Assembly: GCA_032358255.1 (NCBI GenBank) | Contig: JAULBX010030486.1 | Coordinates: 118,108 to 182,107 of the forward strand | Source of the DNA: Heterotrichella gracilis | Lineage: Eukaryota > Sar > Xanthophyceae > Tribonematales > Xanthonemataceae | Direction of reading: 5' to 3' | DNA: 64,000 bases | Part shown: piece by piece, positions 12,031-62,332 of the stretch | How positions within the stretch are numbered: position 1 is the first letter of the stretch | How the letters are laid out: each line of letters begins with the position of its first letter | Notes under the pieces: model-generated | Databases searched by the model: none | What the model was told of the DNA's origin: nothing | What the model saw: only the letters and a program-made list of their open reading frames with translations | Program-made: the position numbers and the translations under genes

Positions 12031-12120
12031 GCTGTGTAGCCCTCGGCTGTGGTGCGTTTAACATCGTACCCTATGCGCTACTTGCCATTCCCACAAGGTA
12101 GCACAGCCAGCAGCTGTACA

Positions 12121-12330
12121 TTGGTTTAGGGTTTAGGGTTTAGCACAGCCAGAAGCTGTACATTGGCCCCCGAGGCGAGTCGCACGTTGGAAGACGTGGT
12201 TGCCCCCTCTATCGTCCAGCACGCTACCCACCCCGGGAGACATTGCCAGTGCTGGTGGCTGTGCTAGGTTGTGATGGCAAGGAAAGGTTGAATATGGTGC
12301 AACCTAAACCCTAAACCCTAAACCCTAAAC
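12121..12330. repeat. Telomere-like tracts in both orientations
   Basis: TTTAGGG-type units at about 12123-12144 and CCCTAAA-type units at 12303-12330 face each other within one intron of copy B. The stretch AGCACAGCCAGAAGCTGTAC next to the first tract is a duplicate of nearby sequence (about 12102 and 12143). Confidence 0.85.
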
Positions 12331-35636: not shown

Positions 35637-38600
35637 ATGGCTTCGTTGAGCCTGGAAGGCAGCCTAGACCATGTGGTCCTCCAAGTGCAAGCGGGTGAGA
35701 AGGGCGGGAGCAAGCTGCGTGGGGGCAGCAAGGCCCAAAGGAACGCCCTCACCGAGCGTTACACCATCGGGGAGGAGCTTGGGAGGGGGGCCTATGGGCA
35801 GGTGTACAAGGGAACAGACGTCAAAACAGGGGAGGCTGTTGCAGTCAAGCAGATCTCCCTTGCGGGGATGTCCCAGGACAGCCTGCAGGGGATAATGCAG
35901 GAGATAGAGCTCCTCAAGAACCTCAACCACCGCAACATCGTGCAATACATCGGCTCCCTCAAGACCAAGACGCACCTGTACATAATCCTGGAGTTCATGG
36001 AGAAAGGGGCGCTGTCCACGCTGATCAAGCCCAGCAGCTATGGCCTGTTGCCAGAGTCACTGGCAGCGGTCTATGTGGCCCAAGTGCTGCAAGGCCTGGT
36101 GTACCTCCACGACCAGGGAGTGGTGCATCGGGACATCAAGGGCGCCAACATCCTCACCAACAACGAGGTACCCGCTCGGGAGAAGCCCCCATATGCATGC
36201 ATATGCACACACGACACCCACTCTCCACACCAACCTAGCTGCTTGCACCCACGCGGTTCCTTTCCACAGCAGCACCCCACCCCTGGCACTGGCAGTACCT
36301 TTGGGCGCGCCATTCTTGTGCGCACTGCGTGTTTGGCGCAGCACCCCCCTGCCAGGCCTACTGATCGTTGAGCGCGCCTGCCTGTTGCAGGGTGTGGTGA
36401 AGCTGGCTGACTTTGGCGTGGCCGCCAAGCTGGGCGAGCTGGAGCAGGACGCAAAGCTGCAGCAGCACGTGGTGGGGACACCATACTGGATGGCGCCAGA
36501 GGTATGGCGCAACGCCTGCACCGCTCCCAATATGCACATCCAGGCAACCACCCCTGGCTTGGTTTCAACATAGGATACCAAAGTCTACCCATGTAAGATG
36601 TTCCACTCTGGTTTGGCGCCATGTGCCGTGCTGCCACTTAGAATTTAGGGTTTTCAGGGTTCCACCCTCCTGGAACCTGCAACTTGCGCCCAACCAACCC
36701 CATTGCAAGCCACTAACCATTTAATAACCCGCAGGTAATTGAGATGACCAGCGTGACAGCCACGTCAGACATATGGAGCGTGGGGTGCCTCGCCATTGAG
36801 CTGCTGACGGGCGCCCCCCCGTACCATGACCTGCAGCCCATGTCTGCGCTGTACAACATAGTGCAGGACGACCACCCGCCGCTGCCGGATGACATCACGC
36901 CGGCATTTAGGGACTTCCTGCTGCAATGTTTCCAAAAGGTTCGTTGGGGGGTAAGGGTGGGTTTTGGGTTGCTGTATGGAAAATGGATGTTGTTGGGAAA
37001 TGTAAGATTGCTGGTCAACGAGTTTCATGGTTTATTTGCGCGCATGGGCTCATTTGCGGCAGATTCGTGCGCTGTGCTTTGAGTAAAGCAAATAATTGCT
37101 CATCCGCAGAGCCATACTGAGGATACATTGCGGCACTTCATGCATGGGTTGAATTGGAAAAGTGCCATCTTGGCGAAACAAATTCTGGCATAATATATAT
37201 AGCAGGCTGGTATGCAAAAGCGCCACACTACAACAAACTGGCATGCACCCACTCCATCACCTCATGACACGCCCGCCACCCACCGCTCCCCCACCACCCA
37301 CCACCCACCACCCACCACCCAGGACTTCATCCGGCGGCCCAGCGCCCGCGGCCTGCTGCGCCACCCCTGGGTGATCCACAACCGCAGCACGCTCAAGGCA
37401 TCATGGAGCAGGGCGGCGGGGCAGAAGGCAAGGGGCGTGCGCGGGGACGGGTATGCCACCGTCAGCAAGGTGGTGGAGCAGATCCTGGAGGTGCGTGGCA
37501 AACCCTGAAAAACCCTAGAAACCCTTGGCTAGGGTTGGAATGGGTGTATGGGAGGGGGTAGGGGGTAAAATGTTGTCAGCAAGGTGGTGGAGCAGATCCT
37601 GGAGGTGCGTGGCGAACCCCAGAAACCCTTGGCTATGGTTAGGATGGGTGTAAGTAAGGGGGTGGGGTATGCGGTTGTCACCAATGTGGTGGGGTAGACC
37701 TAGGGTGTGCATTGCCATTCTGGAAACCTTTGGCTGCAGGACTGAATGGCTGGAACTGTTGTTTGACAGGGGTTGGGGTTTGTTGTCCACCCACAGCCTG
37801 CATGTGGGCAATGCTGAGTATGCTGTACCAGGCTGTTGAAACTCTCCTAAATGAGCTTTTGGGATGTGGGTAGGACCACATGGGAACAATCACCATGTGC
37901 GTTGCGTATGGGTTCATTAAGCATCAGATTGGGCCCTACGCATCACACAGCAACTGAGCGTGTGTCCCTGTGCAGGTGGACAAGGGGCAAGGACCCGACC
38001 TTGCGGCTTCAACCAGCATGCCTCGGCCTCAGCAAGGGTATGTCCCCAGCCACACACATGTGATCCAATTTGTATCATTTTGCCGTGGCAGCAGTGGCAT
38101 CCATGACTGTGGGGAGCGCAGTATGGTGTGATTGGACGTGGCATGCTGTGTGTTAAGCCGTGTGTGGCAATCAAATGGTGCAAAGATCGTCACAAGCATC
38201 CATTGCTGCACAATTCGATGCGGTGGAACTCATTGAGTGGCGGGGAGCAAGCAACAATAAGGCGTCTACTGGATGGTTCTGGTGGGAAGGTTTTGATGAT
38301 GCCTGACCCTTCCTATTTATTCCACTTGCAGTATGCGCGCCAGTGCCGGTGAGGCCTCCCAAGGGGTGAAGACTGTTGAAACGGCCAGGTAAATGCAGCA
38401 TGTGCATGTACATGAAACACACTTGTTGGCGCCTTTCCCTGCACGTGCCAGCATAGTTTGCACGGTTGTTCTTCGCTTCCAGTGCCTAATATACACCCTT
38501 CGCCATGCAGTGTAATGGCAGCCGCAGCTGCAGTCACCAGCCCACTGGCCATGATGACCTCCCCTGCTACTGGTAGGTACAGCTGTACCCCCCTGAGGCA

Positions 38601-41600
38601 TGTGATTAATCTCTATTATTTGTGGGTGCAATTTATGGAAAATGGAAAGAATTAATTCTGTTGCTAAGCATGCTGAATCTGTCCTGTATCTCACACCACT
38701 GTCCTATAATCTCCCGTTTGAACATCCCAACCCATGCATTGCTAATGGGTGATGAGCTGCATGCAAGAATAACGATCCCCATTGGCCTTCCCACCACATG
38801 CCCCCCACCCACCCCACAGGCCAACCGCCGGCGCCCACCGCGCCCCCCACCACACCAGAGACCGATCCGCTCGCCACCTCACCCCAAACAGCCCAGCTCT
38901 TCCCTCAGGACCTGCTCAGCCTGGCTCTCTCCATGCAGAGCGAAGGGGCACAGCCAGGCACCGCGCCGCCCCTACCGCAAAACCTACCGCAAACCACAGT
39001 GGCTGCGCCTGCTGCTGCGTCGAGTGGGATTGGGGTGGGGGCTGTGGTGGGGGATGCTGTGGTGACGGGGGAGGAGGAGGGCCTGCAGCGGCGCAGGGCG
39101 GACAATGCAGAGGTATGCAGGGCGAGCTTTATTGTGCCGGACGACAATGCATTATACTTTTGGACTTTGTTCTCGTATCGAGGTGCCCGACAAAAGCAAG
39201 AAGGTCAAGTTGCTGAACTCATGCAACTTGGCTTCACTGGGGGTGTTGGGCCAGAGCATGAAAGGAAAGCAGTTGAATGCTCGCCATGTGTCAGGTTCTA
39301 AACAAACCGTGCATTGCGTGCTGCATGAGGTTGTGCCAGGACAAGATAGTAGTAGTAAGAAGAATGACGCCAAAGTTATATATATTTGCATGCAATTTCT
39401 TTAAAAAAAATTAGATGCCTTTTACATGCAATTTTCGAGCTGTACCCTTCCCATCCCAGGTGCGCAAGCTGGTTGCACTGCTCCGCTTGCCCGACAAGGA
39501 GCGGGTGGTGACACGGGAGGTTGCCGCGGGCGAGGCATGTGCGCAGCTGGCAGACAGCCTGCCCGGCCACCCTGAGCGCAAGGCTGTGTTTGTGGCTGAG
39601 GAGGGGCTGGTGGCAGTCATGGACCTCATTGACAGCATACAGCACAAGGTGGGGCGCACTGTGGGTGCTTTGAATTGATGGTGTTTTATGCGGGTTGTGA
39701 GTGGGCTTGCTCTTATTTTTCCTTGGCATTGTGATATTGCGCTTTCAAGGTTCACGTGTGTCGCTATGGTGGCGCCACATATAATTTTGCTGCTGTATTA
39801 CCTTTGATTTTAAATGTATGAGGAGGGGCTGATGGCGGTCATGGACCTCGTGGAAGCATACAGCACAAGTAGGGCGCACTGAGGCACGTTCTGGGTGTTT
39901 GGCGTAGTTACCCAGTTAGTAAAACACATTCCAGCAATACAGCCAGATTAGCAGCCAGTCTTGCACATGCGGCGCCACGCAGGGTGTTTGGCTTGATGAT
40001 GCTTAATGCTGCTTGTGAGTAGCGGGCACCACTTCGTTTACGTTGGTATCGCATTTGTATTCTCCATGTGTGTTACAATGGTGGCGTCACAGTTGGCCAC
40101 TGGCACAACCACGCCACACACTCCCACCCTGACCTTTCCTTGCTCATGCCTGCCCCGCACCTCCCCACCTCTCCACCCCTGTCCCAACCACTCATCCTGG
40201 CCCCACCCCAGGTGGTCCTTTCAGCCCTGGAGCTGGTCAACGCCCTAGTCAGGGACGACCTGCAAACCCTGGAATCCCTGGTGCTGCTGGGCGCAATCCC
40301 CGCGGTGGCCAAGTGCGGCCAGACCACGTGGCCGCGCAGCGTGCGGCTGCAGTGCGCTGCCTTCATGGCTCGGCTGTGCTCAGCGAGTGTGCACACGCTG
40401 CGCATGCTGGTGGCCTGCCAGGTGGGTGGTGGGTGGGTGGGTGGGTGGAAGGGGGATGGTGTGGTCACCGTATTGCTGGGGTGATGGGGTGGTGGTTGTA
40501 ACCCACCTGTGTTGGGCCATCGTCGGCACGCTAGTGGCTATGGTGGGTGGAAGGGGGGAGGACTGGGCCAGACATTAGCTGTTCTCTGCTAACATGTGCA
40601 TGCAGGTGGCTTGCAAGATGGGGGCCCATGGTGGCCGCAGTGGGGAGGCTTGCACACAGGCAATATATGTCAACAGTTTTTTGTTATTGAGAAGAAAGGG
40701 AAGCCAAAATGTGTGGGATTAACCAACGCGAAGGGGATTGTGGTTGTGAGGGATGAAAAGTGTGCTGGGGGGAAACAGCAGGTGCACGCGGGGGCCCAAA
40801 CCCTCCAAACCCTATCCCAAACCCTGCGCCAAAACCCTCCAAACCCTTTGCAGGGCCTCCCGGTGCTGGTGGGCTTCGTGGAGGACAACTACGAGGAGAA
40901 TGGGGAGCTGCTGGCCAGGGGCATCGACAGCATTTGGCTGGTGCTGCGCTGCCACGGGCTGATGACAGCAAACCAGATCTGCAGGCTGCTGGCGCATGCG
41001 GGGATGGTGCACCGGCTGGTGCGGGCCATGCAGGTGCGCGGCTGGTGGGAGGGAGTGATTGACTGTACTTGGCTAGCATGACGATGCAGCGTCCCTGTCC
41101 TCAAGTGGGCCTTCTTTTCGAAGCATTATATCGTTTTGCAGAGTTGTGTCAAATGCGGTGCATGCGACATGGAGCACCGGGTTGTGTAGGCCATTCAGGT
41201 GCAGGTTCAGTAACACCCAGCAAGTCCCCGTGCACACGCGCGTAAAGGGCATGGTTCACAGGTTGATCATGTTCGACAGGCCAATCATCCAGTGCCATCC
41301 TTGTGATGGTGTTGCCCCCCCCCCTGCCCGTCCCCACAGGTAGTGTTTGCAGAGTTCAGCGAGCTGCGCCAGAGCTACAGCCCGCCTGGGGCGCGTGACA
41401 CCGCCACAGGTACGAACCACATGCCATGGGCTGAGGGCGCATGTGATCTCGTCACATGGATTCACGTGGCGCCGCATGGGGCCACAGCGCTCACTGAATA
41501 TCATCTGTGGGTACCAACATGCAAACATGAGTACCGCCCCGTATTGAGTCGAAAGCCATCATTTACAGGAGTTTGCAAGCATACGTGTCCTCCAGCCATG

Positions 41601-44600
41601 AGCCCTAAACGATAAACCCTAGACTGCCATCCGCACAAACATCATTCCTGATTGGCCATGCACTCCCACCCCGCAGCGCTCCCTGCCGACGCACGCGCGG
41701 CCACCCACGCGTCCGCCTCCACCCGCGCCTTCTCATCAGACACCGCCAACAGCAACGGCAACCCCTACACCAGCCTGTCATGGGGGCACCGACCCGCATC
41801 CGCACCACCTGCACCCCCCACCACCTCCTCCTCCACCCGCCGGCCAGGCACAGCCCCCGGCACCCTCAAGGGTGGGGCCTCGGGAGGGCAAACCCTAAAG
41901 GGGGTTTCTTCATCGATGGGGGGAGGGATGTCGATGGGGGGCCGGCGCACGCGGTCTGTCAGCCCTGAGATGTACAAGGGGGTTGTGGATCTGCTGGAGA
42001 AGATGGGGAATCTATTGCTGCTCATGGCGCAGGTGGGTGGGGTGTACCCTAAACCCTGAACCCTTATCAGGGTCGATTCAGAGGGGCTGTAGGCACTGCA
42101 CGTTAGGAACCTTTTCTGCCCAGCAAGTGACATGAAGAGGCATTGTCATGCCACTGCCTTCCTTGTCCCTGCCCTCACTTGTAACTCACCAGCATGGGTC
42201 ATGTGCACTGTCTTGTGCCCATTGCGCATGGCTGCTGATCTGGCTGTACTGCCGGAATGTTGTGTAAATACTTACTGCCTGATTGTGGCTGGTTGCAGGG
42301 TGATGCTGCTGTGAAGGGGTGGATGTGCAGGCGGGAGACGCTGGTGGTGCTGTTCACCACAATGCAGGTATGGGCTGGGTAGTGGCGGCGGCGGTAGCGG
42401 CGGCGGCGGTGGTGGTGTTGGTGTGGTGTTGGTGGTGCTTGTTCGCCACCATGCTGGTGGGGTCGAGGGAGGGATGCAGTGATGATGGTGCCATGGTCAA
42501 GGGGATGGCATGCGCGATAAACATCCTGCCAGGTCAGTGTGACGCAAATGTGGCGGTGCCTCTGGGTATACCGTTGAACCATACAGACACTCATGTTCCC
42601 CCCTTGACCTTCGGCACTTATTTCACCCCCTGCAGGAGATGCAGCCTGGCGATGCCCTGCTGCTGACCTGCACCACCGCCCTGCGCCACCTCACCACAGA
42701 CCCAAGCACGCTGCAGGCGCTACAGGTGGGCGGCGGTGGCGGGTGGTGGCGGTGGGTTGGGGTAGTGGCGGTGGTGATGGTTAGGTGGCGGTGGGCAGAA
42801 ATACGTTGGCGCTTGATGTGGACCATGGGCCCCAGGATTTTTATCCATCAGGTTTTGGTCCCTGGGATGTGCAAGCAGCTACCATTGTGGGGTGAAGTAA
42901 GGCACTTGGGATGGGGGCGGGCCAGGCAATTTGCACCTGAATTGGTCTACTGTCCGCTGCTGACCCTTGATCCTGCCAGCTAATACCACCTCCACGTACC
43001 CCAACCCACACACGGTGCCCGCACCAACATCTTGACCCCTGCTACAGCCTGTTAACACCCACTCCACCCACAGGATGCCGGCACCATTCCCCAGCTGCTG
43101 CGGTTGTTCGATGAGCGGGCCGCATACCCACCGGCGGTGGTACACGAGGCGCTGCAGGTGGGGATTGAGGAGGACAGTGCTGGGGTGGGGATAACTGCTC
43201 TGGAGGCGGTGCATCTCATACCGCAGTGGGCAACGTGTGATTGTGGATGTGTACTGTGTTGCTGCCTCACAATATCCATCAATCCAATGCTGCAACCGCC
43301 TGCGGCAGCAATCACAACCATAAGGGTTAAGGGTACCAGTGCTGACTACTCGCGTGCCTGCAGGCAATGAGTAACCTGTGCCGCATCAGCCGGCCTCGGC
43401 AGGAAGCTGCAGCGCTTGCGGGCCTGGTGCCTGCACTGATTCGCATGGCGCGCCCCGCCACCAAGGACCAGGTGAGGAATCCAGTGGCATGTTTACCATG
43501 AGAAAGGGATACCAGGGATGGTTCATCTGGTGATGATGGTCATCGATGCCCTCTGGTGGCCATGGGGTTATGCATCATCTCCATACGCACAGCATCCCTG
43601 CTGGTCCCGCATGCCATCAACTCTATGATGGCCAGGGGAAGGGATACATAGGAACGTGGATTGGGGTTGGGATTTTGGGTGCTCTGATGGCTACTGAGTG
43701 ATGATGATGGTCGCGCGATGCCCCTGGTTTTGGGGTTCCAAGCCAGAGCAAGTGTGTCAGGGGGGTGGCGACACAAGCAAGCAGGCCCTGGTGGCTAAGA
43801 TTTAATAGCCCTGTCACAAAAATTCCCTTGCACAACACACATGCAAACCCCCCGCCTGTCCACCATGTCACACACACCCCGTTGGTCGCTGACCCCGCCA
43901 CCTCCTCTGCCCACCCTCCAGGCCCGAGACGGCCCCCCCCTGCCCTCCCCCGCCGCCTCCATCCGCGCCCTGGCGGTGTCATTGCTGTGCAGCTTGGCCC
44001 ACTCCACTGCCCGCACGCGCGCCGAGCTGTGGTCGACAGGGGCTGCAGACTCGCTGCTGGAGCTGATACGGGAGGAGGTGCGGGGTGTAGGGCTTGGGGT
44101 CTAGGGTTTAGGGTTGAGCTGTGGTCCACAGGGGCGGCAGGCTCGGTGCTGGAGGTGATACGGGGAGCATGTGCGGGGTTGACGATCGCTAGTGTCAACA
44201 TAGCTATTCAGGCGTCTGTGGCTGATTATGAGTACCGTACCCTCAAATTCGGTCACATGCCAACACAGCGCAACCACCATGGATCCACACCCACACACCC
44301 ACCCACACCCACATTCACTTCTTCTTGCGCAGGCGTGGCAGGTCCCTGCCTTTGACGCGCTGGCTGTCTGGTTCCACGAGGACACGCAGCGGGTGGAGCC
44401 AAAGCTTTGCTCACGAGACGCGGTGCAGCGCATGGTGGCCATGTTTGCAATGCACACGCCGCACGGTACGTGGGGGGGGGCTGCCCACTAGGGTCTGGCT
44501 AGGGTGTGGGCATGCAGGGTTGGCAATGCTAGGGTGGGCCCTAGCGTAGGGTGTGGGCTGCAGGATATTGTTTCAATATTACACGTGAGGGGCTGTTCTC

Positions 44601-45963
44601 TAGGGTCTGGCTAGGGTGTGGGCATGCAGTGGGGGCAGTGCACGCAGCATGCGAGGATGGGCCATTAGCAGGGGGTTGCGTTGGGGCCAAAGTGAGGAGG
44701 CATTGTCAGCGCGAAGCAGTCTGGAATGGGTGTGGACGCTTGGCAAGGGTGTTGATGCTGGCTAGGGTTTGTAGCCGCGCCTTGATCTAGGTGTGCTGCA
44801 ATGGACTTCAGGGTGGAGCCTGCCTGGAATGGGCTTGTGGCTTGCAGAATGTATGGAGTGCGTCGCACGGACACCCCAAGACCCTAAACCAGAACCTGAA
44901 GACCTGAAAGCCCCGAGTTTTCAACCCTAAAACCCTTCTCCTGCAGGTGACGCTGCCCTGCTGGCCCGGCTACTGGACTCGCTGCTGCGCATCGTGAAGA
45001 AATCACCCAAGGTGACCTGGGAACCCTACGATCACAAACCCTAAACCCTGACCACAGTGAACCTCTGGGGGGATTGTTCACTTCACGCTGAATACCCTAT
45101 CTGAACACCCTACCTGAAAACCTAACCAGGATCCGCGCTATGCAAGTGACCGTCGATCTGGGCAGATTTTGAAAGGTTCACCAGGACCCTGTGGCGATCC
45201 TAAAACCCTACTAGGATCCTCACGCCCTGCACCTGGCTGCACAGGTGACCGTCGAGCTGGGCGCGCATGGGCTGACCCCCTTCCAGGTGGAGCTTTTGAA
45301 GCAGGGCCATGCGCTACATGCTGAAAACCCTATCAAAACCCTGGTACCCTACCGGACAAAACTACCTATGGCGATCCTAATATCCTACCATGATTCTTAC
45401 ATGCTGCACCTCGCTGTGCAGGTGACCGTGGAGCTTGGCACGCATGGCCTGACCCCCCTCCTGGTTGAGCTCCTGAAGCAGGGCCATGCGCTGACCTGCA
45501 AGAGCACCCTGGAGGTGCTGCGCTACATCTACATGCAGCACCCGCGACCAAAGGTGGGTGTGCGGGCTGTGGGTAAAGTACTTGTGGAGGGGGTTTCTGT
45601 TCCTAGACGGGGGTGAAAAGGCATAGGTGGACAAAAGCTTTTGCACCGGCTCGCTGTCTCGATAGTTGATCGCCTCCTTAACGCCATGTACCTGGCTGAA
45701 TGTATGTTGTACAATTGCCACAAAAATTTGGAAAAAAAACCCCAGTTGTGTATCATCCTGAACGCCGTCAGGACTCTGCGGTGTGTTGGACCTCAAGGTT
45801 GAGCTGTCCTTGTTTCCCTGCGCAGGAGTTCATCATAAAGTACAACATCCAGGACCAGCTGCGCACGCTTGCGGGTGGCGGCGAGGGGGGCACCCACGGC
45901 GTGCTGGTGCAGAAGCTGGCGGCCACCCTGCTGGCTGCATTCCAGATCAATGTAGCAGTATGA
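35637..45963 (+). CDS. MAP3K-epsilon / Cdc7-like protein kinase with armadillo-type C-terminus
   Basis: Twenty-two exons: 35637-36167, 36391-36501, 36735-36938, 37323-37490, 37976-38037, 38332-38388, 38511-38572, 38820-39112, 39460-39648, 40212-40421, 40854-41033, 41340-41409, 41677-42032, 42299-42367, 42636-42725, 43074-43157, 43364-43471, 43922-44077, 44333-44465, 44947-45011, 45422-45553, 45826-45963. They total 3468 nt, 1155 aa. The kinase domain (about 42-300) has GRGAYGQV (49-56), the ATP-binding Lys-71, HRDIKGAN (164-171), DFG (184-186) and GTPYWMAPE (206-214). A Pro/Ser-rich linker follows. Helical repeats in the C-terminal half (KLVALLRLP..., [36 protein letters not shown]) match plant MAP3K-epsilon and yeast Cdc7/Sid1-type kinases, which act in cytokinesis and cell-plate or septum signalling. 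Arabidopsis relatives are slightly longer (about 1370 aa). Introns 4, 9 and 18 contain copies of the preceding exon's tail, and intron 20 contains copies of the start of exon 21. Confidence 0.92.
37574..37740 (+). repeat. Intronic copies of kinase exon 4 tail
   Basis: Directly after exon 4, intron 4 repeats the exon's last ~37 bases with the donor and following intron bases (GTCAGCAAGGTGGTGGAGCA at about 37574), nearly identical to 37460-37490. A third, more decayed copy starts near 37673 (GTTGTCACCAATGTGGTGGG). The unit is about 105 bp. Confidence 0.9.
39829..40085 (+). repeat. Intronic copies of kinase exon 9 tail and flank
   Basis: GAGGAGGGGCTGATGGCGGT at about 39830 repeats the end of exon 9 (from 39598), with its CAGCACAAG donor context decayed to CACAAGTAGG. 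A further copy of the intron part (GGGTGTTTGGCTTGATGATG, about 39980-40085) repeats the sequence after the first donor. None keeps a coding frame. Confidence 0.85.
44116..44176 (+). repeat. Intronic copy of kinase exon 18 tail
   Basis: GAGCTGTGGTCCACAGGGGC at 44116 repeats the last ~55 bases of exon 18 (44026-44077). Original and copy are separated by a short TTTAGGG-like run (44098-44114). Confidence 0.88.
44484..44640 (+). repeat. Intronic tandem repeat
   Basis: AGGGTCTGGCTAGGGTGTGG occurs at about 44490 and again at about 44602 in intron 19, separated by related sequence, showing local duplication without a coding component. Confidence 0.75.
45120..45345 (+). repeat. Upstream copies of kinase exon 21 with its acceptor
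   Basis: Two copies of the start of exon 21 precede the real exon at 45422. One, at 45245, is about 85 bp long and keeps a CACAG acceptor and open frame. A shorter one lies at about 45141. The intron sequence before each acceptor is also repeated (GGCGATCCTAA at about 45192 and 45370). The 45245 copy could be used as an alternative or cryptic exon but lacks an obvious donor in frame. Confidence 0.85.
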
Positions 45964-47524
45964 CCAGGGGGGGTGGGATGGGGAGGGGGGGGGGGGGTAG
46001 CGGGTGGAGCTGGGATGGGTTGGCTGGAGATTGGATGTACGAGGGATTTTCGGGGGCTTTTGAATCGATGGCACCCACAACCCACACCAACAACTCGTAA
46101 GGTGATAAAACTGATGCGCACGGGCTGGTGCCTCATGGGGCGCGTCGGCCGCATGATGAGGCATTGAGACTGCAAGTTTAGGCTTTAGGGTGGTAGGGTT
46201 TCATGGTAACCCACACGCCATACTTGGCGCAATGTGGACCCGGTGGAGTGTGTGGGGGAGGAACGTGACACTGATGAACAGCACTTTGACTTGGTGTGAC
46301 CTGTTTGATGTGGCAATGGGCCTGCACCATGCTTTTGTGACATGGGCCCTGGGGACGCATATGGGTTGCCTAGGCCCTGTGCAAATTTCGGATGGGTTGT
46401 TGACATTGGGTGGGGTGGGGTGGGGTGGGGAGAGCCCTGGATGCAGGGTGAATGAACCATAATTGCGTGAATTATTAGAGATGTTGCCATGTGATACTTG
46501 TTAACAGTGACGACTGCTGTTGTGCTCTACTAGTACACTACAGTACCCATGTCCAGCGCCACTTGTTTCACAAAATTTTTTTTCTATGTTATTTGCGCCT
46601 GAGACTGGTGTGGCCCATGGGAGTTGGGGTTTAGTGTCTTAATATTGGAGAAGCCCTGCCATCTTCAAATCTGGCTGACAGTTTGGACTTCAGTCCGACT
46701 TGTAGCAATGGTGTTGCTGGACCATGGCGAGGCTTTCCTAAGCCTTGGCATATGTAACGCTGCAAAATATATCTGTCCAGCAGTAACTGTGTCCAGAGCA
46801 GCAGTAACAGTGCAGCAATTGGTACAAAGTAAGTATATTTCAGCGCAACAGAGTCGAGAACGTTGAATAGGTGTGGAACTTGGGGATGACAGATAGTAGG
46901 TCCAACCCTTGGTGTGTGTAGGAAGAATGAAAGGGAACAAGCCAGGACCTAGTCTAGGCCCAAACTAGTCCTGTCCCCCACTGTCAATGGCAGGTGGCCA
47001 GGCCTAGTACACTGTTTGGCCTGGAGGTGTGACACCTAGTGACTAGGCGCGTACAAGTAGCTTCTGGTCTAGATAGGGGGTGGGTGGTGTTCATCATATG
47101 GAGCAAGGTGAACCGACAAGCCCTAGGCATCGCCCTGAATATGCACCGCAGCACTTGCCTCCGTTGTGTCTGGCCTCAGTACCCAGTACTGACCGAAAGA
47201 TATGTGGCGTCCCGTGCATGCATTTGGTACGTGCACAGGAAAATGTGACACTGTGCATTGAGTAGATACCATTGCCATGCATGCCTGATGAGCATCAGCG
47301 CTTCACCCAGGTAGCCCCTCACAGGGCAACAGGAGGCCGCCTCCTGGAGGCGGCGCCATATCACCTGGTTGGCGGCGGCAGCCACAGCCCAAGCCCAAGA
47401 CCTGGCGGCGACACCGACTCAGCTAACACCAGGATAGCTGGGCAGCGAATATTCCCTGCTTTCGCGCGTGTGTGCAGGCTTTATTCCCTCCAGCTCAGCA
47501 CACACTCTTGGCCGGCGCGGGGTT
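45964..47524. other. Intergenic region upstream of small secreted protein
   Basis: No gene is supported. It holds a G-rich run (GGGTGGGGTGGGGTGGGG, about 46408-46431) that could form a G-quadruplex. It also holds a near-perfect hairpin, GCCGCCTCC-T-GGAGGCGGC at 47336-47354, about 180 bp before the TATA box of the next gene. Confidence 0.6.
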
Positions 47525-47531
47525 TATATAA
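47525..47531 (+). promoter_or_regulatory. TATA box of small secreted protein
   Basis: TATATAA followed by GCCGGCGACGTCAGCG lies about 95 bp before the ATG at 47626, a usual distance given a short leader. The CGACGTCA downstream resembles a CRE/bZIP site. The strong core promoter fits a highly expressed product. Confidence 0.7.
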
Positions 47532-47625
47532 GCCGGCGACGTCAGCGTTTCGGGCACCCGCAACCAAAACCTTCGAGCTCATCCCTGTTCATCTAACGCA
47601 CCTACCCCCCCCCCCCGACCTCACG

Positions 47626-53000: not shown

Positions 53001-56000
53001 AAGAAGGGGATTGCGGCCACTAATAGAAGTCTGTCATAGTAAACTGATGGTTTTATAACATTGTACTGCCAAAGGGCACAGGGCCCACCTTTGAGCCAGT
53101 GAGTGCGGGTGCAAACCCTAGGGTTGGCACTCAGAAGCACTTGCACACCTGCTGCACCACCCGGAAACCTGCTGCACAACCCTTGGTAACCCTAGGGATC
53201 CCAACCATAAACGCAAACCCACCTGTACACCTGCGCCACCACGTCCGACCCGTGGTACATCCTGGCACACAGCGCGCCTGTCGGCACAGCACAGGAGCTG
53301 CTGTAGAAGCTGAACAGCGGGGTTTGCACTAGGGTTTCCACTAGGGTTTCACCCACCTGTACACCTGCGCCACCAGGTCTGACCCGTGGTACATCCTGGC
53401 ACACACTAGGGTTTATGATAGGGTTTTCCATGGTTTTCCACCAGGGATTCACCCACCTGTACACCTGCGCCACCACATCTGACTCATGGTACATCCTGGC
53501 ACACACTAGGGTTTATGGTAGGGTTTTCCACTAGGGTTTCACCCACCTGTACACCTGCGCCACCAGGTCTGACCCGTGGTACATCCTGGCACACACTAGG
53601 GNNNNNNNNNNNNNNNNNNNNNNNNNNNNNNNNNNNNNNNNNNNNNNNNNNNNNNNNNNNNNNNNNNNNNNNNNNNNNNNNNNNNNNNNNNNNNNNNNNN
53701 NTTTATGATAGGGTTTTCCATGGCTTTCCACTAGGGTTTCACCCACCTGTACACCTGCGCCACCACATCTGACCCGTGGTACATCCTTGCACACAGCGCG
53801 CTGTCGGCACAGCAGAGCAGCTGGTGCAGGAGCTGGACAGCAGGGTTGTAGAGCGACGGGATTGAAAGCAGGCCGATGAGGGCGCTCGGGTAGCCGCAGC
53901 GGTACAGCATGCGGGTGAAGGGGAGGTTGCGCACCTGCGTATCAGGGTTCAGGGTTTAGGGTTTAGGGTTCAGGGTATGCTCCTGGGCACCAGATTTAGG
54001 GTTTACGGTTGAGGGGAGGTTGTGCAATTGGGGACACCTTTTTCTGCATCGCTGGAATCAGCACATGGTGTTGTGCACCCTGTCGATTGCCCCTTTGGGA
54101 TGGTCAGGTACTTAACAAGAACTGGCTGCCGCCTGCAGCACGTACGGGACTACGGCGACCAGGCACCCCGTGCATTGCTTTGCCTTGGCTGGGGGCGTAA
54201 AGGCAAGGGGCATAAATAATAATAACTAAGGGTTGTTATTATTTATACCCCTTGGTGGAGGGTTCAATGCGGGTGCTGCATTGTACATGTCACCTACCCA
54301 GGCTTTTGAGCTACCATTTCATGCAGGTGGAGGGTCCCTACCAGCAGCAACAAATGGTTGTCAATACACTCCACAACTGCTTTGATTTGACTGTGCCATG
54401 GGGCCAGAGGTAGGCCGTAACTACCAAAAATGCACCGCCGGAAATGCACTCATGCAGCAGGGTAGGCTCCAGTTACTGGGGACATTACTATCTCATTACT
54501 ACAAAAGGTCCTATTATTTACTTATTTACCCTTCTAAGGAACCAAAAGAAAGGCAGTAGGGTCAAGGGATGGGGCAGTACCACGACAGTTGGGTGTGGCG
54601 CTTGCATGTAGTGGTGGGCTTTGCCAGTCACAAGCCCTTCTTGGAGGGTAGTCATCTGGTAGAATCGCAGCTCGTATCGCGCGGTGTTGCTTTCATCCAG
54701 GGGGAGGCCTTGTAGGTCGGTGCACAGGGGGAGGATGACCTGACTCTGCATCAACAAGGGGGAGATTATACATCCAAGGGGGTAACATTACATCATAGGG
54801 GAGGTTGTGTACCTTGGTGCACAAGGGGAGGAAACCGGCGTCAGAGACACTGCAGGCATGGCTTTTGTATTCTTCCACCATTTACATGGTCAGGTATCCT
54901 TGCATGCTAACCCTGCTGACACCACCAGCCCTGTGATGCCTTCTTTTTACCACACCCGTTCCCTCGGTGTGACCGTAAGGCCGCTCGGCGCCCCCTGACC
55001 TGGAGCAAGCTAACGTAGGGTTTAGGGATGTGGATCATACCCCAAAGGCTATTTGGATCAAGTCAGGGGGCACCTTGTTGACTCAACTCTTGATGCAGCA
55101 CCCACACCACAGCGGATGCCACCTCGCTGCCCGCCAAGGCCATTGCCTGGGTGGTATCCAGACGCTCAAGGATCATTGTCAGCTTGCAAATCCACGATGG
55201 AGGGGAGGCCACCACCTGGGCTGCAAACGCCTTGCGCAGCGCACAGCTGGCGGGGTCCTGGGGGCAAGGGGGAGCCAATCAATTTCAAGGGGTGGAACTA
55301 CAGATGCGGGGAGGTCGCTATCTGGGTTGCCACCGCCTTGTGCAGCTCACAGCTGGCGGGGCCAACATGTCACATGTGCGCCAGACCAGAATGCACAGCG
55401 TGTTTCGGGAACATATGGGGGGTAGCAATGCACTGGTGGCCCCATGTGAAAGTGCAGAGGCATGCAGTATGGTGGGAAGGGTGACATACACTGACAACAT
55501 GCAACACTAGAAGCTCAGTGGTGGCAAGACCCGTACCGTGCCCACCAGGTGTTTGGCCAAGTACTGGATGAGGCGATTGAGGGTGGTCTTGTCCTTCTGG
55601 CCGAACGCTGCTGCTGTTTGATTGACGATGGTCTGCACCCCTGGGAAGCGCTCGCTGGGGATGTGTGCCTGCGGGGTATGTTCATGATCATTTGGACACT
55701 TGTGGAGTCATTGTGATGCGCGTGCTTCCATGGAGCTTGAGAGACAGTCTCACCAGGAGTCCAAGCACAGGGTCAAGGGAGACACCGCTAGTCCTCTGAT
55801 TGAAACCCACGGCACGTGAGCCATGTGGGATGTAGGGTTTAGGGGTATGGACTGTACCCCTGGGAAGCGCTCGCTGGGGGTGTGCGCCTGCCCAGTACCA
55901 GCACAGTGTGAGCCACGCGGAGTTTAGGGTTTAGGGTTTACGGGCCACATGAGCCGTGTGAGCCATGGTAGATCCAGATGGTCCATAGGCCTACACCCAT

Positions 56001-59000
56001 AGGCCTATGCACTAAAACCATTAGTTGAAAACTCAAAACGACATTATTTGAGCACCGGCGAGTGTGCCGGAGCGCTACTGGGGAGAGGATGCGGACATAT
56101 AGGAACACCCTACAAGAACCTCCCTGCAAACCCTGGACAGGGTAGTGCAGGGCCCTCACCTCTGGCTCCACAGGCTGTGGCACCACACCAACTCTCAACC
56201 CCTACACCTGAAACCCTAAACAGGGGTCTCTCACCTCTAGCTCCGCAGGCTGTGGCGCCGCAACCACTCTCAACCCTACACCTGAACCCTAAACAGGGGT
56301 CTCTCACCTCTGGCTCCATAAGCTGTGGTGCTGCAACCAGTGCCTGGACAGCCCTCTGCTCCCCGGTGGCCTGTAAGTCAAGGGAGGGGAGAAATATGAG
56401 GGCACCTAGGCGTGGAAATGGCCAGCCAACCCGCCAAGCAAGTCAAAGTTCCATGCCCACCTAGGTACCTGATCTGATTGTTTGCCTTCTCCGTTCACTT
56501 GCTTTTGCATACCATGATCAGCGATTTCTTATATCCAGTGCACACGCCATACATGCTGCCTCTACAAGGTCCCAAGCAACAGGCATACCAGGGGTGTTAA
56601 TGTATATACCAGGAATCCTGGTTTATATATTAATACCCCTGGGCATACTGAGCAGCCGATACAGCTGCTGGCCCTGGTTGTCATTCCATTCACCCACCAC
56701 CCCCAATCAGATCCAGTCAACCCTGCAGTAAGGCTGCATGGCAAAAACCTACTCGTGCTGCAAAACCCTACCTGTCGTTTCAGTTTGTGCTCCGCTCTCC
56801 TGCCGGCGCCCTCCTGCTGCCTCCCCCATGGGCTGGCAGGGGAGGAGTAATACGACCGGAAGGCTATCAACCCCTGGCTCATACACCAAGTCCAGTCAGC
56901 GCCTGCCATTGGGTGGTATGGGTACTGGGGCGGCACTATTGGCTCATGCACCAGGATCCGTCAGCGCCTGCAATGGCGCTGCTCACCACTGCTTATGAAG
57001 GTGACACTGCCGCTGCCAATTTGGGTTTGCTTGCTCTTAGAGGGCACAGCAGATACCCAGGTGTTCTAGACGCAGGAGTTCATAAGGTATAATTGCCTGT
57101 CAGTGCAACTACAACGGGGCTCCTGGCCTGACTGGCATCCAGCCATGGGTGAAGAGTGACAGTACTGGTACTGTTACTATGCTGTGGTGCGGTTATAGTA
57201 CTAGCACTAGTGGTTCGTAATCTGAAGCAACGGCTAATGCACTGTACACTTTATAACATGGCGGAGTCAGGTGCACATGATCAACGTATTCAGCTTGGCA
57301 ATGAAGGGGAAGTCAGCAATAGGTTGCCAGTATGACAGCCTTACATACCCTTAAAGACTCACACGGAGTTGGGTACGAAGCCATGCACCAGGTGACATCA
57401 CCTGCATGCATAAAGCGTGTGCCATAAAAACGCTGCAACCAATACGACGGACTGGGCTACCGCCAAGCAAAGAGGTATGCACTTGGCGCTTGTTGAGTTG
57501 TTAAAGAAGGCCAAATAACTGTTGAAAGAAGAAACCTATTCGGAACTCAGCCACTAAGTGTACACTGCTTATAGTGCGCGCCCAGGGCTTTATGTCAATG
57601 GCAGTAGACAACTGCTGTTATGCCGTGCGGTGGTGAAAGCAGCTAACGGGAAGGGGGAAGCTGCAACAATTTGCCATTGTCACAGCCTTACACAGGAGTA
57701 GCCATGGCCATGGTGTGTCATTTGCATGCATGCATAAACTGTGAAAGGGAATCTACTAGATTTGATCTGATGTACTGCGAGTGACTCGGCATTAAATTTG
57801 AAACCGGGCTCGAATCACACTGTGTTCCTCGCCCAGCTCAAAGCTGCTGCTCCTCTGCTCCTCACTGGCTGAAGTTCATGCCAACACATGGCATGGGTGT
57901 CAAAGGGAATGGGCCGAGGTTGACCCACCACCCAATACTGGCGCACGAGCTCAGCCCTGCACAGCACACGAGGTACCTCAATGCTCAATGCGAAAGTTCA
58001 GGCTTAGGTTCATAGGTCACTATTACTCAACCACCACCATCAACGACTACCGTTGCCAAACCAAGCACGCCGTACCGCTGCTGGGCTGAAGGTGGGCGCA
58101 GCAGTGCATTACCGCCACTACAACCCCGCACGAGCTGACAACTCAACAGCTCATTCCCACCACACTGCCTCAGCTGCTGCCACCCTCAGCCCACCTCCTG
58201 CTCCCCCTCTGTTCCGAGCATTGCTTCACTGCCCCTCCCATTTCCATGAACCACCCTCACCCCTTATGGCATAAAGCACCCACACGCCGCAGTACCCGCA
58301 CCCTTGCTGTCCCAGCCCATCACACTCACTACCCCCTACCCCGCCCTTGCACACCCCTCCCCTCCTAGCACAGATCGCCCCACCTGCCGCCCCTGTGCCC
58401 CACCACTGCACTCAGCCCTCCAGGCATCCAGCAAGCACCCGCCCTCTGGCAACACTGCAGTGCAAAACGACAGCTCAGGCGCATTCACAGGCATCACAAC
58501 GATGCTGCAACCCTCATCCACATGTGCAGCTCAAGGGGTGACCCACTATGGCAATATGGGTATATATATGCAGCTACGGCTCACATGAGCACAATGCATT
58601 CAAGTTTGCATCCGCATTGCATGACACCAACGCATGATCTTGCCATTTTCACGCACAATCCGGCATACCCACATTGCCAATCTGGTACACATTCAGCACC
58701 GTGCATGCTCAGGTACTCACTTGCAGCGGCGCTCACAGGATGGCGCATGACAGCCTGGTCGGCACGGCCGCCCTGACCACGCTCCGCAGTGGCACCCTGC
58801 CCAGCTTCCAGCCAGGGCTGCACCTCGACAGGCAGCGTGCGCGCGACCCATGTGCCTGAGATCCATGTGAACCATGTGCCTCAAACCCCAGAGGGCTGGA
58901 GCTGCCGCGCCCGCACTGCATGGCCGCACAACTTACATGACTCTGCGCCAGGCACAAATCCATTAGTTTCGTCAGCACAGTCAACTCCCTCAGCAAATAT

Positions 59001-62000
59001 GAGCCTAGAAACAAGGCAAATATGAATGTCAATATGTCAGGCTATCATGCTGCAGAAACCCACCAGGTTTCAATTCCAAACCGCTTATGTCTCAGGTGAC
59101 ATGATATCAAATTGGATGAGTAAAGCAGGGGTAAAGGCAGGAGGACTTATATAGCACGATGACATGTTAAAGTTGTTGTATTTAAGTCCTCCTGGTAAAG
59201 GGAAGATGTGTTGTCCAACGAGTGACTTTGAGCTGACAGGGGTCCCTGTGAGTCTGCAATATATACTGGGCACCCGCCTGCTTCACGCTTACCGACATAT
59301 TGACAATCCCGCGCTCCTTGTCTATCCTGGCCACCTTCTCCACCTCGCCCATTTCCTTCTCTCCCCTTGAAACCACGTGCCTGTGTCTCCTGGGAACCTG
59401 CAAGGCCAGCATTAATAATCCCATCAGCAATATCACTCGCGCACCAAAGCTTTACACCTGCGCTTGCGGCCAACAGCGACAAAGGGTGCACCAAGCAGCA
59501 GGAAGGCAAGTGTTTTTTTAGGGTTTTAGGGCTTTAGGGTTTGTAGGGATTCAGCAGTCCACTTGCAAACCTAGCCCCCGACCATGCCGCAGGAATCGTT
59601 ATGACACAGGGATCGTTATGACACTGTGTGTGATATCAGCTGTGTCAGTGACACATCCAATTGACGTCAAATTACGAAGACACTGCTAAAGGACACGCTG
59701 CCCACCTTTGAGACGGTGAATGCGGGTGCAAACCCTAGGGTAGGTTTTGCACTCACCAGAGGTACCAGTAAGTGTGCATACGGCAGTATAAGACCTTGGC
59801 ATATGGGTCAAAACAAGAACAGGGTACTAGTTCTAGCCAATACCCTGGCATGAAGCGACATTGTTGGCCAGATGCTATCCCAATCCTTCGCGGAAGTTGG
59901 GGTCAATAAGCCAAGATTTGCAAAGAGCAGACTTGTGGGATCTAGTATCAACCTTAGTGAAGTCAAAGGGTATGTGAGCCAGTCACGAGGGTTCTGAGCT
60001 GCCAACTCTAGCGCCTCTGCTGCAACAAAGATCGTATGTGGAGATCCATCTTGCTGCACAAAGGCTGGCCTCACAGGAACTTTGCTAGGGTTCACCAAGG
60101 GTTCCCACCCACCTGTACACCTGCGCCACCACGTCTGATCCGTGGTACATCCTGGCACACTGCGCGCTGTCAGCACTGCAGAGGGGCTGGTGTAGAAGCT
60201 GGACAGCAGGGTTTGCGCTAGGGTTCACCAAAGGTTTCCACCCACCTGTACACCTGTGCCACCACGTCTGCCACGTGGTACATCCTGCACACAGCGCCCT
60301 GCCCATTAGCTGGTGAAGGAGCTGGGCAGCAAGGTCGTAGAGCAATGGGATCGGTGGCACCCGATATCCCTTATCTCCAGGGTGCAGTAAGCGAACCAGG
60401 TTTGAAACCCCAGATCTGACACTGCAAAACCACAGAAGTACAGAAAGTATGGTTTAGGGATTAGGGTTTAGGGTTCAGGGTTTAGAATCCGCAGCGGTAC
60501 AGCATGGGGGCAAAGGGGAGGCTGCACATCTGAGGACCAGAATTTAGGGTTTAGGGTATGCTCCTGGGCACCAGAGTGTAGGACGAAGGGTTAGGGGGAG
60601 GTTTTGCACGAACAAGCATGGTGGTATGCACCCCTTTCCTCTAAAGCCTAAACCTATCCCCTTTTCCCCGCGCGGTGCTTTGTGTTTTAGACTGTGGATT
60701 GTGCACTGTGTTGACAGCCCCCAACAGTGCACTCAGTTGCCCCATAAATGACAGGTATCCAAGTAACTGTCTGCCACCTGCAACAAGGATGGGCCATGGC
60801 GTGCACGGCACCCAGGCATCCCGTTGAGGGTGAAGAAAGTCAATTTTGAAGGTTGATTGCATTGCGTTGCTTGCCTTTGCAGGGGACCAGGGAGGCTTCA
60901 ATGTAGGGGTTGCATTGTACAATGGCACCTGCCCAGCATTTGGAGCCCACACTTCATGCAGGTGGAAGGTCTCTCACAGCAGCAACAACAAATTTCTGGG
61001 AAAAAATCACTATTGCTTTTGATCTGACGGCGCCATGGGGGCAGTGGTCGGTTGAGATCACCAAGAATGCACCACCAATAATGCATTTTCTGTGGTCTCA
61101 GCCCATGCAGCGGGCAGGATCTAAATAATAGGGATCAAGTGGAAGGCATAAGGGTCAAGGGAAGGCCGTTAGGGGTAAAGGGGGGGGACAGTACTGTGGC
61201 AGTTGGTAGAGGCGCTTGCAGGTGAAAGTGGGCTTTGCCAGTAACAAGCACTTCTTGGAGGGTACTCGCCTGATAGGATTGCATCTCGTGACGCGCGGTG
61301 CTGCTTTCAGCCGAGGGAGGCTTTGCAGCTCGGTGCACTGGGGGAGGATGACCTGGCGCGCGCTGTGTGAACAAGGGGATAATTCAGGTCAGATCGAAAG
61401 ACTGCAATGCAATGTAGGCTCCCAAATATAAGAAACAGATTCGCCTTTTGCATTAATCCCTCGATTAATGTAAACCCTTGGGTTATATGGACTGCCTGCA
61501 TGTTTTTTGTCATTGTCGGATCATTCTGATGGGCAGCAGTCCTTGCGTGCTATCTTTACTAACACTACCAGCCTCGCTGATAGCTTTTTGCCTGCTGCCT
61601 GTTCCCTGGGTGTGGTCCCTGGGTGTGGCGCCCCCTTACCTGGGTGTAATTTAGTGTTTAAGATTTAGGTTTAGGGTTTTTTGTTGTACCCCAAAGGCTA
61701 CTCATGTAGCTACAGCTGCTACTCATGTAGCTGCATGCTTTATGTCCACTGATCATCACACCTGCCATGAGTCCAGTCCTTCAGATGCCATCCCACAATC
61801 CTGTAGCTGCGTGTCCATGTCATTGAGTAGCCCATAGCTGAAGTCTGCCACCTGTACACGTGCGCCTTCGATTAGAGGTAGGCAGCATGAAAAGGACATC
61901 GTGTGTATTGGGTTTAGGTTCCAGGAATGAAGGGGAGCATGCCTCATCGGGCTCGTAGGTTTGGCACCCAGGGGAACCACGTGTTCTGTGTTTGGTCCCG

Positions 62001-62332
62001 CACCACCCGGACACCATAGCACCTCAGGGTTGGCACCAACTGCACACTAGCCCTAGGGTTTGCGCGCACCTCTAGCACATCCCCCTCTACCTGCATCGCC
62101 CCCATACATCTGCAGCAGGGTCGCCACTGCCAGCCGCCGTATCCATCCCTCCGTCTTGAACCCTTCCTGGGACACTGGCAAATCAGGTGTGGTAACCTCC
62201 GGGGACCAGCTGCGTCTGCTGGATGAGCCAATCGGTGACCTCACGCTGCGCCTTGTTGGCACACGCCACCAGCGGGTCCACCCTACACACATGGTGCTGC
62301 GCACAGCAGCGCTGGTGAGTGATGCGCCCAAC
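50044..62332 (-). CDS. Large MYND-finger protein (exon chain, some joins unresolved)
   Basis: Minus-strand exons with splice signals: 62332-62197, 62174-62091, 62039-61762, 59397-59293, 58988-58937, 58855-58721, 56370-56308, 55668-55537, 55257-55074, 54745-54581, 53934-53747, 52688-52591, 52065-51956, about 51646-51332, 50715-50391, 50315-50044; roughly 880 codons. Most consecutive phases agree (for example ...VYR|WLLESPPVLW, 53747 to 52688). The joins 58721-56370 and 55074-54745 do not, so exons may be missing or the chain may be two genes. The C-terminus has a MYND-type zinc finger, CRCQQGVRYCGKRCQ...H...C, whose first Cys pair is atypical. The rest is leucine-rich and helical, armadillo-like in feel (NPAVQLLHQLLCCADSALC), with no named domain recognised. 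MYND fingers bind proline-rich partners; no function is assigned. The 51.6-kb exon has no AG acceptor where the frame requires one. Confidence 0.6.
51118..51286 (-). repeat. Intronic copies of the exon ending at 51332
   Basis: CTGCTCCACTGTCTCCCCCT at about 51211 to 51286 repeats the exon's last ~75 bases with the donor (forward 51329-51405). A decayed copy lies near 51140-51176 (CACCAGTGTATTGGGTGCAG). Each copy is bordered by CCCTAAACCCTAA units. Confidence 0.88.
51816..51950 (-). repeat. Two intronic copies of the exon ending at 51956
   Basis: Forward sequence TTCCATGCCAGCTCCTGCGA (about 51888) and TTCCATGCCAGCTCCTGCTA (about 51810) repeat the exon tail at 51957 (TTCCACGCCAGCTCCTGCGG). Units are about 70-80 bp and are joined by AAACCCTAAACC. 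Confidence 0.92.
52455..52580. repeat. Two-copy 65-bp intronic repeat with CCCTAAA
   Basis: GGCTCCCTCCTTGGAGACCG (about 52529) and AGCTCCCTCCTTGGAATCCG (about 52447) head two units, each ending in CCAACCCTAAACCCTA. They do not match a recognised exon. Confidence 0.8.
52884..52904. repeat. Interstitial telomere-like tract
   Basis: Three consecutive TTTAGGG-type heptamers within an intron of the MYND gene. Similar short tracts lie at 53948-53968, 55924-55939 and 60458-60484. Confidence 0.85.
53222..53746 (-). repeat. At least four tandem copies of an exon tail, with a 100-N gap
   Basis: Downstream (minus sense) of exon 53934-53747, the segment encoding YHGSDVVAQVYR plus its GTGGGTG donor recurs at about 53540-53600, 53452-53507, 53350-53405 and 53222-53320. 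The last copy is longer and reaches further into the exon. Units are separated by AAACCCTA-rich linkers. The 100-N gap (53602-53701) lies inside the array, so the true copy number is unknown. Confidence 0.93.
55305..55362 (-). repeat. Partial upstream copy of exon 55257-55074
   Basis: The stretch matches the 5' ~55 bases of the exon beginning at 55257 (minus strand CCCGCCAGCTGTGAGCTGCA versus CCCGCCAGCTGTGCGCTGCG). It lies upstream of the exon. A similar upstream copy of the 55668 exon start lies at about 55835-55895. Confidence 0.8.
56158..56270 (-). repeat. Two intronic copies of the exon ending at 56308
   Basis: Forward CTCACCTCTAGCTCCGCAGG (56231) and CTCACCTCTGGCTCCACAGG (56155) repeat the tail and donor of exon 56370-56308 (CTCACCTCTGGCTCCATAAG at 56303). 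Units of about 75 bp are linked by TTTAGGG on the minus strand. Confidence 0.9.
56371..58720. other. Long intron or intergenic stretch within the MYND exon chain
   Basis: No exon was identified in 2.3 kb, although the phases of the flanking exons (58721 and 56370) require at least one more exon or a gene boundary here. Confidence 0.5.
59700..61730 (-). pseudogene. Decayed segmental duplicate of 53.1-55.1 kb
   Basis: About 2 kb resembles 53.1-55.1 kb in order and orientation. It contains a copy of the 54745-54581 exon at about 61360-61190 (QVILPQCTELQSLP, then a one-base deletion shifts the frame into ESSTARHEMQSYQ). It also has a fragment of the 53934 exon at about 60485-60525 and two copies of that exon's YHG...QVYR tail at 60105-60210 and 60238-60345. 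Intron sequence between them also matches (for example AATGCACCACCAATAATGCA at about 61065 versus AATGCACCGCCGGAAATGCA at about 54429). Frameshifts make it unlikely to be coding; it would sit inside an intron of the MYND gene. Confidence 0.8.

Follow-up and report, generated by a model that had tools for sequence, protein, structure and literature searches.

The lengthening of introns is, to our knowledge, little understood. CST is the telomere fill-in complex. Tandem duplications at DNA breaks with 3′ tails have been reported to depend on CST and Ku80 (PMC8355091), and telomeric repeats have been reported to enter at breaks, sometimes with duplication of the target site (PMC2246262), with further cases at internal breaks documented elsewhere (PMC7215372) and telomerase action at such breaks termed probably rare (PMC2246262). 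In the stretch of DNA considered here, 64,000 nucleotides from the xanthophyte Heterotrichella gracilis (C794:118108-182107 of a 68.5-Mb assembly in 903 contigs; hereafter the window), the edges of exons, mostly together with their splice sites, recur as copies inside the neighboring introns, in part joined by telomere-like sequence.

These exon-edge copies share features with several described systems and also differ from them. Like the tandem duplications attributed to CST-Pol alpha and Ku, they are short and direct, and the tails in that system, down to 43 bases, approach the length of the exon part here (PMC8355091). Those duplications, however, were nickase-induced in mouse and human cells, and the relevant passages of that report mention neither a bias to exon edges nor telomeric filler. 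Interstitial telomeric sequences likewise form short arrays at internal joints, sometimes with duplicated flanks (PMC2246262, PMC7215372), but 31% of the human ones are described as intronic, a share compatible with random insertion (PMC7215372), whereas introns here carry telomere-like sequence at about ten-fold the density of intergenic DNA, and this sequence is joined to exon-edge copies. Inverted duplications have also been reported for interstitial telomeric sequences, in contrast to the edges studied here. In a potato RdRp gene, a duplicated segment spans an exon-intron boundary as it does here, but the present cases enlarge an existing intron rather than document a new one (PMC4974935). 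Introners, known in green algae too, are similarly a source of recurrent intron change, but an introner is described as one element copied across genes, whereas here each copy derives from its own exon (PMC9860276). No prior description of exon-edge copies with telomeric linkers was found in a literature search that left subscription papers mostly outside its reach.

The window was analyzed together with an independent replicate stretch of 200 kb devoid of any N (C2:1-200000, hereafter C2), with edge tests spanning 264 kb in all and genome-wide data consisting of pattern counts. Gene models were obtained ab initio, using a finder trained on both stretches with a minimum intron of 55 bp, and comprised 52 genes and 418 introns with donor consensus CAG/GTRNG and acceptor consensus YGCAG/G; as a check on them, Pfam domains were matched in four of the five predicted stretches submitted. 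The genes called MYND and FN3 below retain the labels of an earlier note on this DNA, the domain test having covered the kinase only. The gene finder mistook several intronic copies for exons, a warning for annotation; called exons shorter than 60 bp were counted as intron, and exons at window positions 53223 and 60113, which are copies, were removed by hand.

Self-alignment retained direct pairs of at least 25 bp with E ≤ 1e-4 lying at most 2 kb apart, after removal of pairs that were shorter, of low complexity, more than half telomeric or shifted by less than 20 bp. Local direct repeat pairs numbered 31 for the window and 72 for C2, against none in one dinucleotide shuffle of each stretch; 64 of the 103 rows were assigned to an exon edge and 39 were not. 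Exon sequence was found copied into the adjoining intron at 54 of 632 confident exon edges (33 donors and 21 acceptors; 11/164 in the window and 43/468 in C2); one of the 54, C2 29053, matches within the exon and is not properly an edge. The copied unit reached the splice site in 48 of the 54 and ended 2-32 bp short of it in five. About one in seven introns between confident exons carried a copy (48/316), with a median length of 399 bp as compared to 284.5 bp in the others, and six had copies of both flanking exon edges (C2 20264-20580, 58926-59324, 60992-61643, 142461-142876 and 181241-181609; window 55668-56307).

The edge bias was also assessed at equal geometry, by comparing 90-base segments with up to 250 bases of neighboring sequence at a score of at least 40, with telomere units and simple repeats masked. 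Segments did not overlap, except that the 436 forward and 436 backward intron-interior sets overlap each other. Copies were detected for 36 of 594 edge segments (window 6/164, C2 30/430), comprising 22/295 donors (window 5/82, C2 17/213) and 14/299 acceptors (window 1/82, C2 13/217), and for 28/594 (15 donor, 13 acceptor) when the 60 exon bases alone served as query. Intron-interior controls gave 5/872 (3/436 and 2/436) and intergenic segments 0/424, while mid-exon segments against the adjoining intron gave 1/363 (1/179 and 0/184), edge segments against the other intron 0/409 (0/206 and 0/203) and swapped targets 2/3256. The scarcity of mid-exon copies is expected, since an adjacent duplication with one half in the intron must touch the edge; by contrast, the scarcity of copies within introns and intergenic DNA is unexpected. 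Exon-edge copying is firm and extends past the window. These counts bear out the bias to splice-site edges asserted in the earlier note; of the genome-wide excess it envisaged, the edge test covers 264 kb, and the whole genome is represented by pattern counts and donor clusters only.

A bias of this kind could be produced by selection alone, if duplications arose evenly, exonic ones were purged, and edge copies stayed visible for longer because one of the two copies is constrained. Such a filter accounts for the scarce mid-exon copies and for the presence of copies at donor and acceptor edges alike. Random placement of units at their observed lengths, however, put 0.20 of them at edges, 0.39 in introns and 0.20 in intergenic DNA, for an expected edge share of 25% among non-coding survivors, or 40% if edge copies enjoyed a two-fold detection advantage. 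The observed share was 54 of 68 clusters, the remaining 14 being non-coding clusters away from edges, with P of 1e-20 without any advantage, 5e-11 at a two-fold, 7e-7 at a three-fold and still 0.002 at a five-fold advantage. Among pairs of at least 88% identity, where decay counts less, 13 lay at edges against 3 elsewhere (P 4e-6, rising to 0.001 under a two-fold advantage), and high-identity homology ended just past the splice site instead of evenly. A selection filter by itself is therefore distinctly unlikely. The 14 other clusters were counted by hand (10 intron-only, 1 intergenic and 3 at start or stop codons), one of the intron-only clusters (window 14611) being really the edge of FN3 copy B. 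The placement test omits exon-exon clusters, inner pairs of edge arrays, a paralogous fragment of the MYND gene, C2 28975-29349 and C2 135568 (a terminal-exon edge, 94%), and it changes little once C2 29053 is dropped. Local duplications were also seen to straddle start or stop codons (C2 118926-119201, C2 90993-91131 and window 56875-56974), suggesting that the effect may concern coding edges generally, beyond splice sites.

The copied units have a characteristic anatomy. The exon part exceeded the intron part in 41 of all 54 pairs (medians 49 and 14.5 bp), in 19 of the 20 pairs of at least 85% identity (medians of 45 bp of exon and 10 bp past the splice site) and in all 13 pairs of at least 88% identity (medians 49 and 8 bp). 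At the young acceptor C2 181241 (96%) homology stops at the splice site, with an intron part of 0, and at the young donor C2 189654 (92%) the intron part is 1; both have telomere-like linkers. Other copies form plain tandem arrays, such as a 53-bp unit present three times at C2 4678-4836. The copies are adjacent to their source and direct in orientation (36 direct and no inverted copies among 594 edge segments), as are break-repair tandem duplications. Templated insertion by polymerase theta-type end joining is expected to give copies in both orientations. The absence of inverted copies from all 594 edge segments makes this route very improbable, even though it would provide local filler copies and family-A polymerase matches occur in three multi-exon loci (not resolved to theta). 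Two further family-A DNA polymerase matches, both very strong, are intronless open reading frames of 943 and 948 amino acids (C442:116638-117765 and C111:216815-217945), and their bacterial look suggests that the assembly may include bacterial contigs. A spliced-mRNA template was considered and rejected: in the rows inspected by eye the copied exon end never ran on into the next exon (for acceptors, the previous exon), the underlying table of 44 rows including 20 trivial self-overlaps that were disregarded.

The linkers between edges and copies resemble the telomere of this species. Its unit is TTTAGGG, with (TTTAGGG)8 on 11 contigs, on ten of them no further than 200 bases from an end (C872 not included), and (TTTAGGG)3 occurs at 834 places genome-wide, overlaps counted, against 0 for controls, so that internal arrays of the species' own telomere unit are present, as in interstitial telomeric sequences. 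The inner ends of true telomeres (L035 and L049) hold variant units (TTCAGGG, TTTTAGGG and TCTAGGG) resembling the intron linkers. In the introns of the window and C2, no 7-mer rotation class is commoner than the exact heptamers, in both orientations and chiefly near exon edges; in exons and intergenic DNA they do not rise above the reversed-motif control. When one mismatch per ten bases was tolerated, telomere-like coverage was 2.9% in introns, 0.36% in exons and 0.30% in intergenic DNA, compared to 0.73, 0.39 and 0.30% for the reversed motif. Edge-to-copy linkers reached 9.5%, with a match in 20 of 51, as against a mean of 3.2% and 7.8 of 51 in position-matched stretches at copy-less edges, where the linker level was attained in 0 of 2000 resamplings; flanks beyond the copy gave 3.4% and 10 of 51. 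The enrichment of heptamers at the joints proposed in the earlier note is thereby supported, and its wording that they often accompany the copies applies to those 20 of 51 linkers.

Genome-wide pattern counts, with overlaps counted, gave TTTAGGG within 30 bp behind a donor 1305 times (control 23) and CCCTAAA 902 times (control 17), where one donor may count repeatedly. CCCTAAA was found 5-30 bases before TGTGCAGG at 291 places (control 0) and after it at 119 (control 5). Among the first 100 listed places for each of the two donor patterns, same-strand donor clusters within 250 bp, on eight contigs, comprised 18 of 92 distinct donors for the TTTAGGG pattern (0.4 expected) and 10 of 87 for the CCCTAAA pattern (0.3 expected). 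These clusters suggest that donor sites recur with telomeric units following, as judged from pattern counts and not from exon-edge alignments. Few heptamers of the TTTAGGG orientation fall within the last 30 intron bases, probably because their AG, lying upstream, would compete with the real acceptor AG. Heptamers were also intron-specific and edge-biased in introns of the window and C2 that show no detectable exon-edge copy.

Splice-site copies or telomere-like motifs might alternatively be retained by selection for aiding or regulating splicing. The intron specificity of the heptamers would fit this, as would the splice dinucleotides, intact in 40 of the 46 copies reaching them and so somewhat above expectation from an exon-part identity of 0.83-0.86 per base. 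Alignment ends, however, favor intact sites, and heptamers are common in both orientations near donors. Furthermore, a predicted diaminopimelate decarboxylase aligned without gaps to the chloroplastic enzyme PDB 6n2a at two copy-bearing edges (C2 189654 and 191168), indicating that this protein, the single one examined in this way, is spliced at the exon-proximal sites and that the copies are intronic. We consider functional retention improbable.

Intron ends are rich in G-runs. In introns with no detected copy, GGG covered 0.119 of the first 20 bases compared with 0.047 of mid-intron sequence (2.5-fold), and CCC covered 0.187 of the last 20 bases compared with 0.046 (four-fold); these zones coincide with where the copied part tends to stop. 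Donor edges with a copy had 2.03 GGG in the first 20 intron bases compared to 1.03 in those without (p 0.014), exon-edge GC was slightly higher with copies (0.642 against 0.623, p 0.02), and G4 motifs were about ten-fold rarer in intergenic DNA (0.02-0.05 per kb, a handful of motifs) than in exons and introns (0.33-0.52 per kb). As a source of the edge preference, G-runs are a weak, post hoc proposal. In replication slippage, a rival account, forks would stall at intron-end G-runs or G-quadruplexes, the nascent strand would realign backwards and duplicate the exon edge, and heptamers would be another G-rich product. The density of GGG at intron starts and of CCC at intron ends even without copies, the lower density of G4 motifs in intergenic DNA and the lack of inverted edge copies all suit this explanation. 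Young joints, however, contain filler found in neither copy (C2 181242-181277 and 189656-189688), which simple slippage would not add. Moreover, the heptamers near donors point either way, and some copy-bearing donors have no G-runs (e.g. C2 4808). Slippage is hence unlikely in our estimation, while being a close rival of break repair.

Taken together, the structure and bias of the edge copies point to recurrent mending or copying of DNA at exon edges that enlarges introns. We favor, with a probability of about one half, tandem-type duplication at exon edges during repair or replication, often with telomeric filler, the surplus copy being kept inside the intron. For the chemistry we infer that a lesion or stalled end would form in exonic DNA or in an intron-end G-run (first ~20 bases sense, last ~20 antisense), that complementary single-stranded tails of ~30-100 bases would be filled in and joined, giving a direct duplication of the tail, and that in many cases telomeric DNA would be added or captured before joining. 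The enzymes would be a CST/Pol alpha-like fill-in activity, telomerase or telomere capture, and Ku-type joining. Selection would then purge exon-internal events and keep those leaving one copy and the splice site, so that the intron grows, and later unequal exchange or slippage could multiply the copies. A TERT-type domain is encoded in the assembly and a Ku domain at two loci; a search for STN1 domains gave no match, but its control likewise matched nowhere. The break repair with telomeric fill-in put forward in the earlier note fits the lack of inverted copies, the filler, and the TERT and Ku domains, and is best read as a conjecture with replication stalling at G-runs as its close competitor.

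Several observations weigh against tandem-type duplication with telomeric filler. Events confined to introns or intergenic DNA are few, unlike what random breaks would leave, so that the model needs an added exon-edge or G-run preference, which the data show weakly: the first 20 bases on the donor side can include linker, so their GGG excess may be an effect and not a cause, and acceptors show a trend only (2.10 against 1.64, p 0.2). No telomere-like match was found in 31 of the 51 linkers, the filler of young pairs is already irregular and not clean TTTAGGG, though true telomeres show irregular inner ends as well, and heptamers before donors are above control genome-wide as well (311 against 22 and 326 against 14). 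The sequence does contain inverted repeat pairs (12 in the window, 19 in C2), their sorting by place having covered edge segments only. It is possible, if doubtful, that in this lineage exon-intron edges are themselves the lesion sites, with repeated breaks no more than about 10 bases from the splice site that are tied to flanking G-runs, exon-specific chromatin or RNA-DNA hybrids, and with the telomere machinery (telomerase and CST-type fill-in) recruited to them. If this were so, a splice-edge-directed mutational engine would be writing telomeric DNA and exon-edge copies into introns genome-wide. As scars with a readable direction, length and filler, the copies make a mutational bias at splice-site edges measurable from sequence.

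The edges recorded in the window are the following.

37461..37735, plus strand: donor of kinase exon 4 (37490); the last 30 exon bases and the intron start are repeated downstream, in register, with a linker (37491-37574) that is 24% telomere-like.
39597..39884, plus strand: donor of kinase exon 9 (39648); unit 39597-39664, copy 39819-39884, 88%, linker without telomere motif.
40991..41202, plus strand: donor of kinase exon 11 (41033); unit 40991-41037, copy 41157-41202, 79%, absent from the earlier list.
44024..44179, plus strand: donor of kinase exon 18 (44077); unit 44024-44086, copy 44116-44179, 88%, with a linker (44087-44115) that is 86% telomere-like.
45188..45492, plus strand: acceptor of kinase exon 21 (45421); unit 45365-45492, upstream copy 45188-45315, 83%.
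51150..51416, minus strand: MYND-gene donor (51331); unit of ~120 bp in two tandem copies, 89%, joint with heptamers.
51792..52007, minus strand: MYND-gene donor (51955); about three tandem copies, 82%, joint with heptamers.
53217..53847, minus strand: MYND-gene donor (53746); array of exon end, 5′ splice site and CCCTA-type linker, with four extra intronic copies.
55202..55361, minus strand: MYND-gene acceptor (55257); copy 55308-55361, 83%, the unit ending 2 bp before the splice site; new.
55628..55891, minus strand: MYND-gene acceptor (55668); copy 55847-55891, 91%, the linker holding CCCTAAACCCTA; new.
56155..56339, minus strand: MYND-gene donor (56307); unit of 73-75 bp in ~2.5 tandem copies, 88%, joint with heptamers.
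60084..60351, minus strand: paralogous fragment of the MYND gene, same edge as at 53.2-53.85 kb; two copies here, five in the gene.
14611..14799, minus strand: edge of FN3 copy B; 14611-14697 and 14712-14799 duplicated, 81%, single in copies A and C.

All nine exons named in the earlier note (kinase 4, 9, 18 and 21, four MYND donors and FN3 copy B) were recovered, the FN3 duplication being real and lying outside the region in which that note had placed it, and three further edges were added (kinase donor 41033 and MYND acceptors 55257 and 55668). The suggestion that copies decay with distance is weak, since the four copies of the MYND array at 53.2-53.8 kb match the exon at 95, 94, 95 and 90% identity in order of increasing distance. 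This array contains a gap of 100 N (53602-53701), which leaves its copy number uncertain and is the one feature that would fit an assembly artefact. Copies differ by 4-30%, however, and C2 is free of N. A mobile element is opposed by units that are locus-specific: when the 54 units were compared with the 264 kb, only three distant matches were found, of which two fell in the MYND paralog fragment and the third, 28 bases long, at window 490-517. Linker-linker comparison gave 23 matches among 51 linkers, which have only telomere-like or simple G/C-rich motifs in common. Artefact or mobile element is, on these grounds, scarcely credible. An introner, as one element in many genes, was likewise rejected, the units being nearly confined to their own locus within the 264 kb.

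Paralogs allow the history of two edges to be read. The MYND fragment is a partial paralog (window 59682-61355) about 6.6 kb away from its source at higher window coordinates, a position upstream in the sense of the gene. The first, longer duplication and the CCCTA-type linker are common to gene and fragment, and the edge is present in five copies in the former and two in the latter. The FN3-type gene occurs in three paralogous copies (window 4486-9258, 9523-14897 and 16793-about 22000), one inverted relative to the other two, with an intron common to all three whose edge is duplicated in B alone and single in A (4675-4719) and C (21639-21721). By paralog comparison only, the duplication is thus a derived change relative to less duplicated sites in both families (FN3 B against A and C; MYND five against two), suggesting that in the checkable cases copies arise and multiply in pre-existing introns.

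This history bears on the Rogers model, in which introns are born from duplicated AGGT-containing exon segments and to which the earlier note had linked the copies. Tandem exon copies do exist here, and the potato duplication crosses an intron-exon boundary too (PMC4974935). The FN3 intron, however, is older than its copy, which indicates intron growth and not birth, and for 49 of the 54 copies the opposite splice site is further away than the edge they derive from, so that they do not bound a new intron. Intron creation of the AGGT type is therefore exceedingly improbable as the origin of the copies, and that link is not upheld. The FN3 B exon at the duplicated edge was not called by the gene finder, so copy B may be decaying. 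Its intronic copy carries a GGGTACC variant found in copy C and not in its own exon, a hint of exchange between the paralogs.

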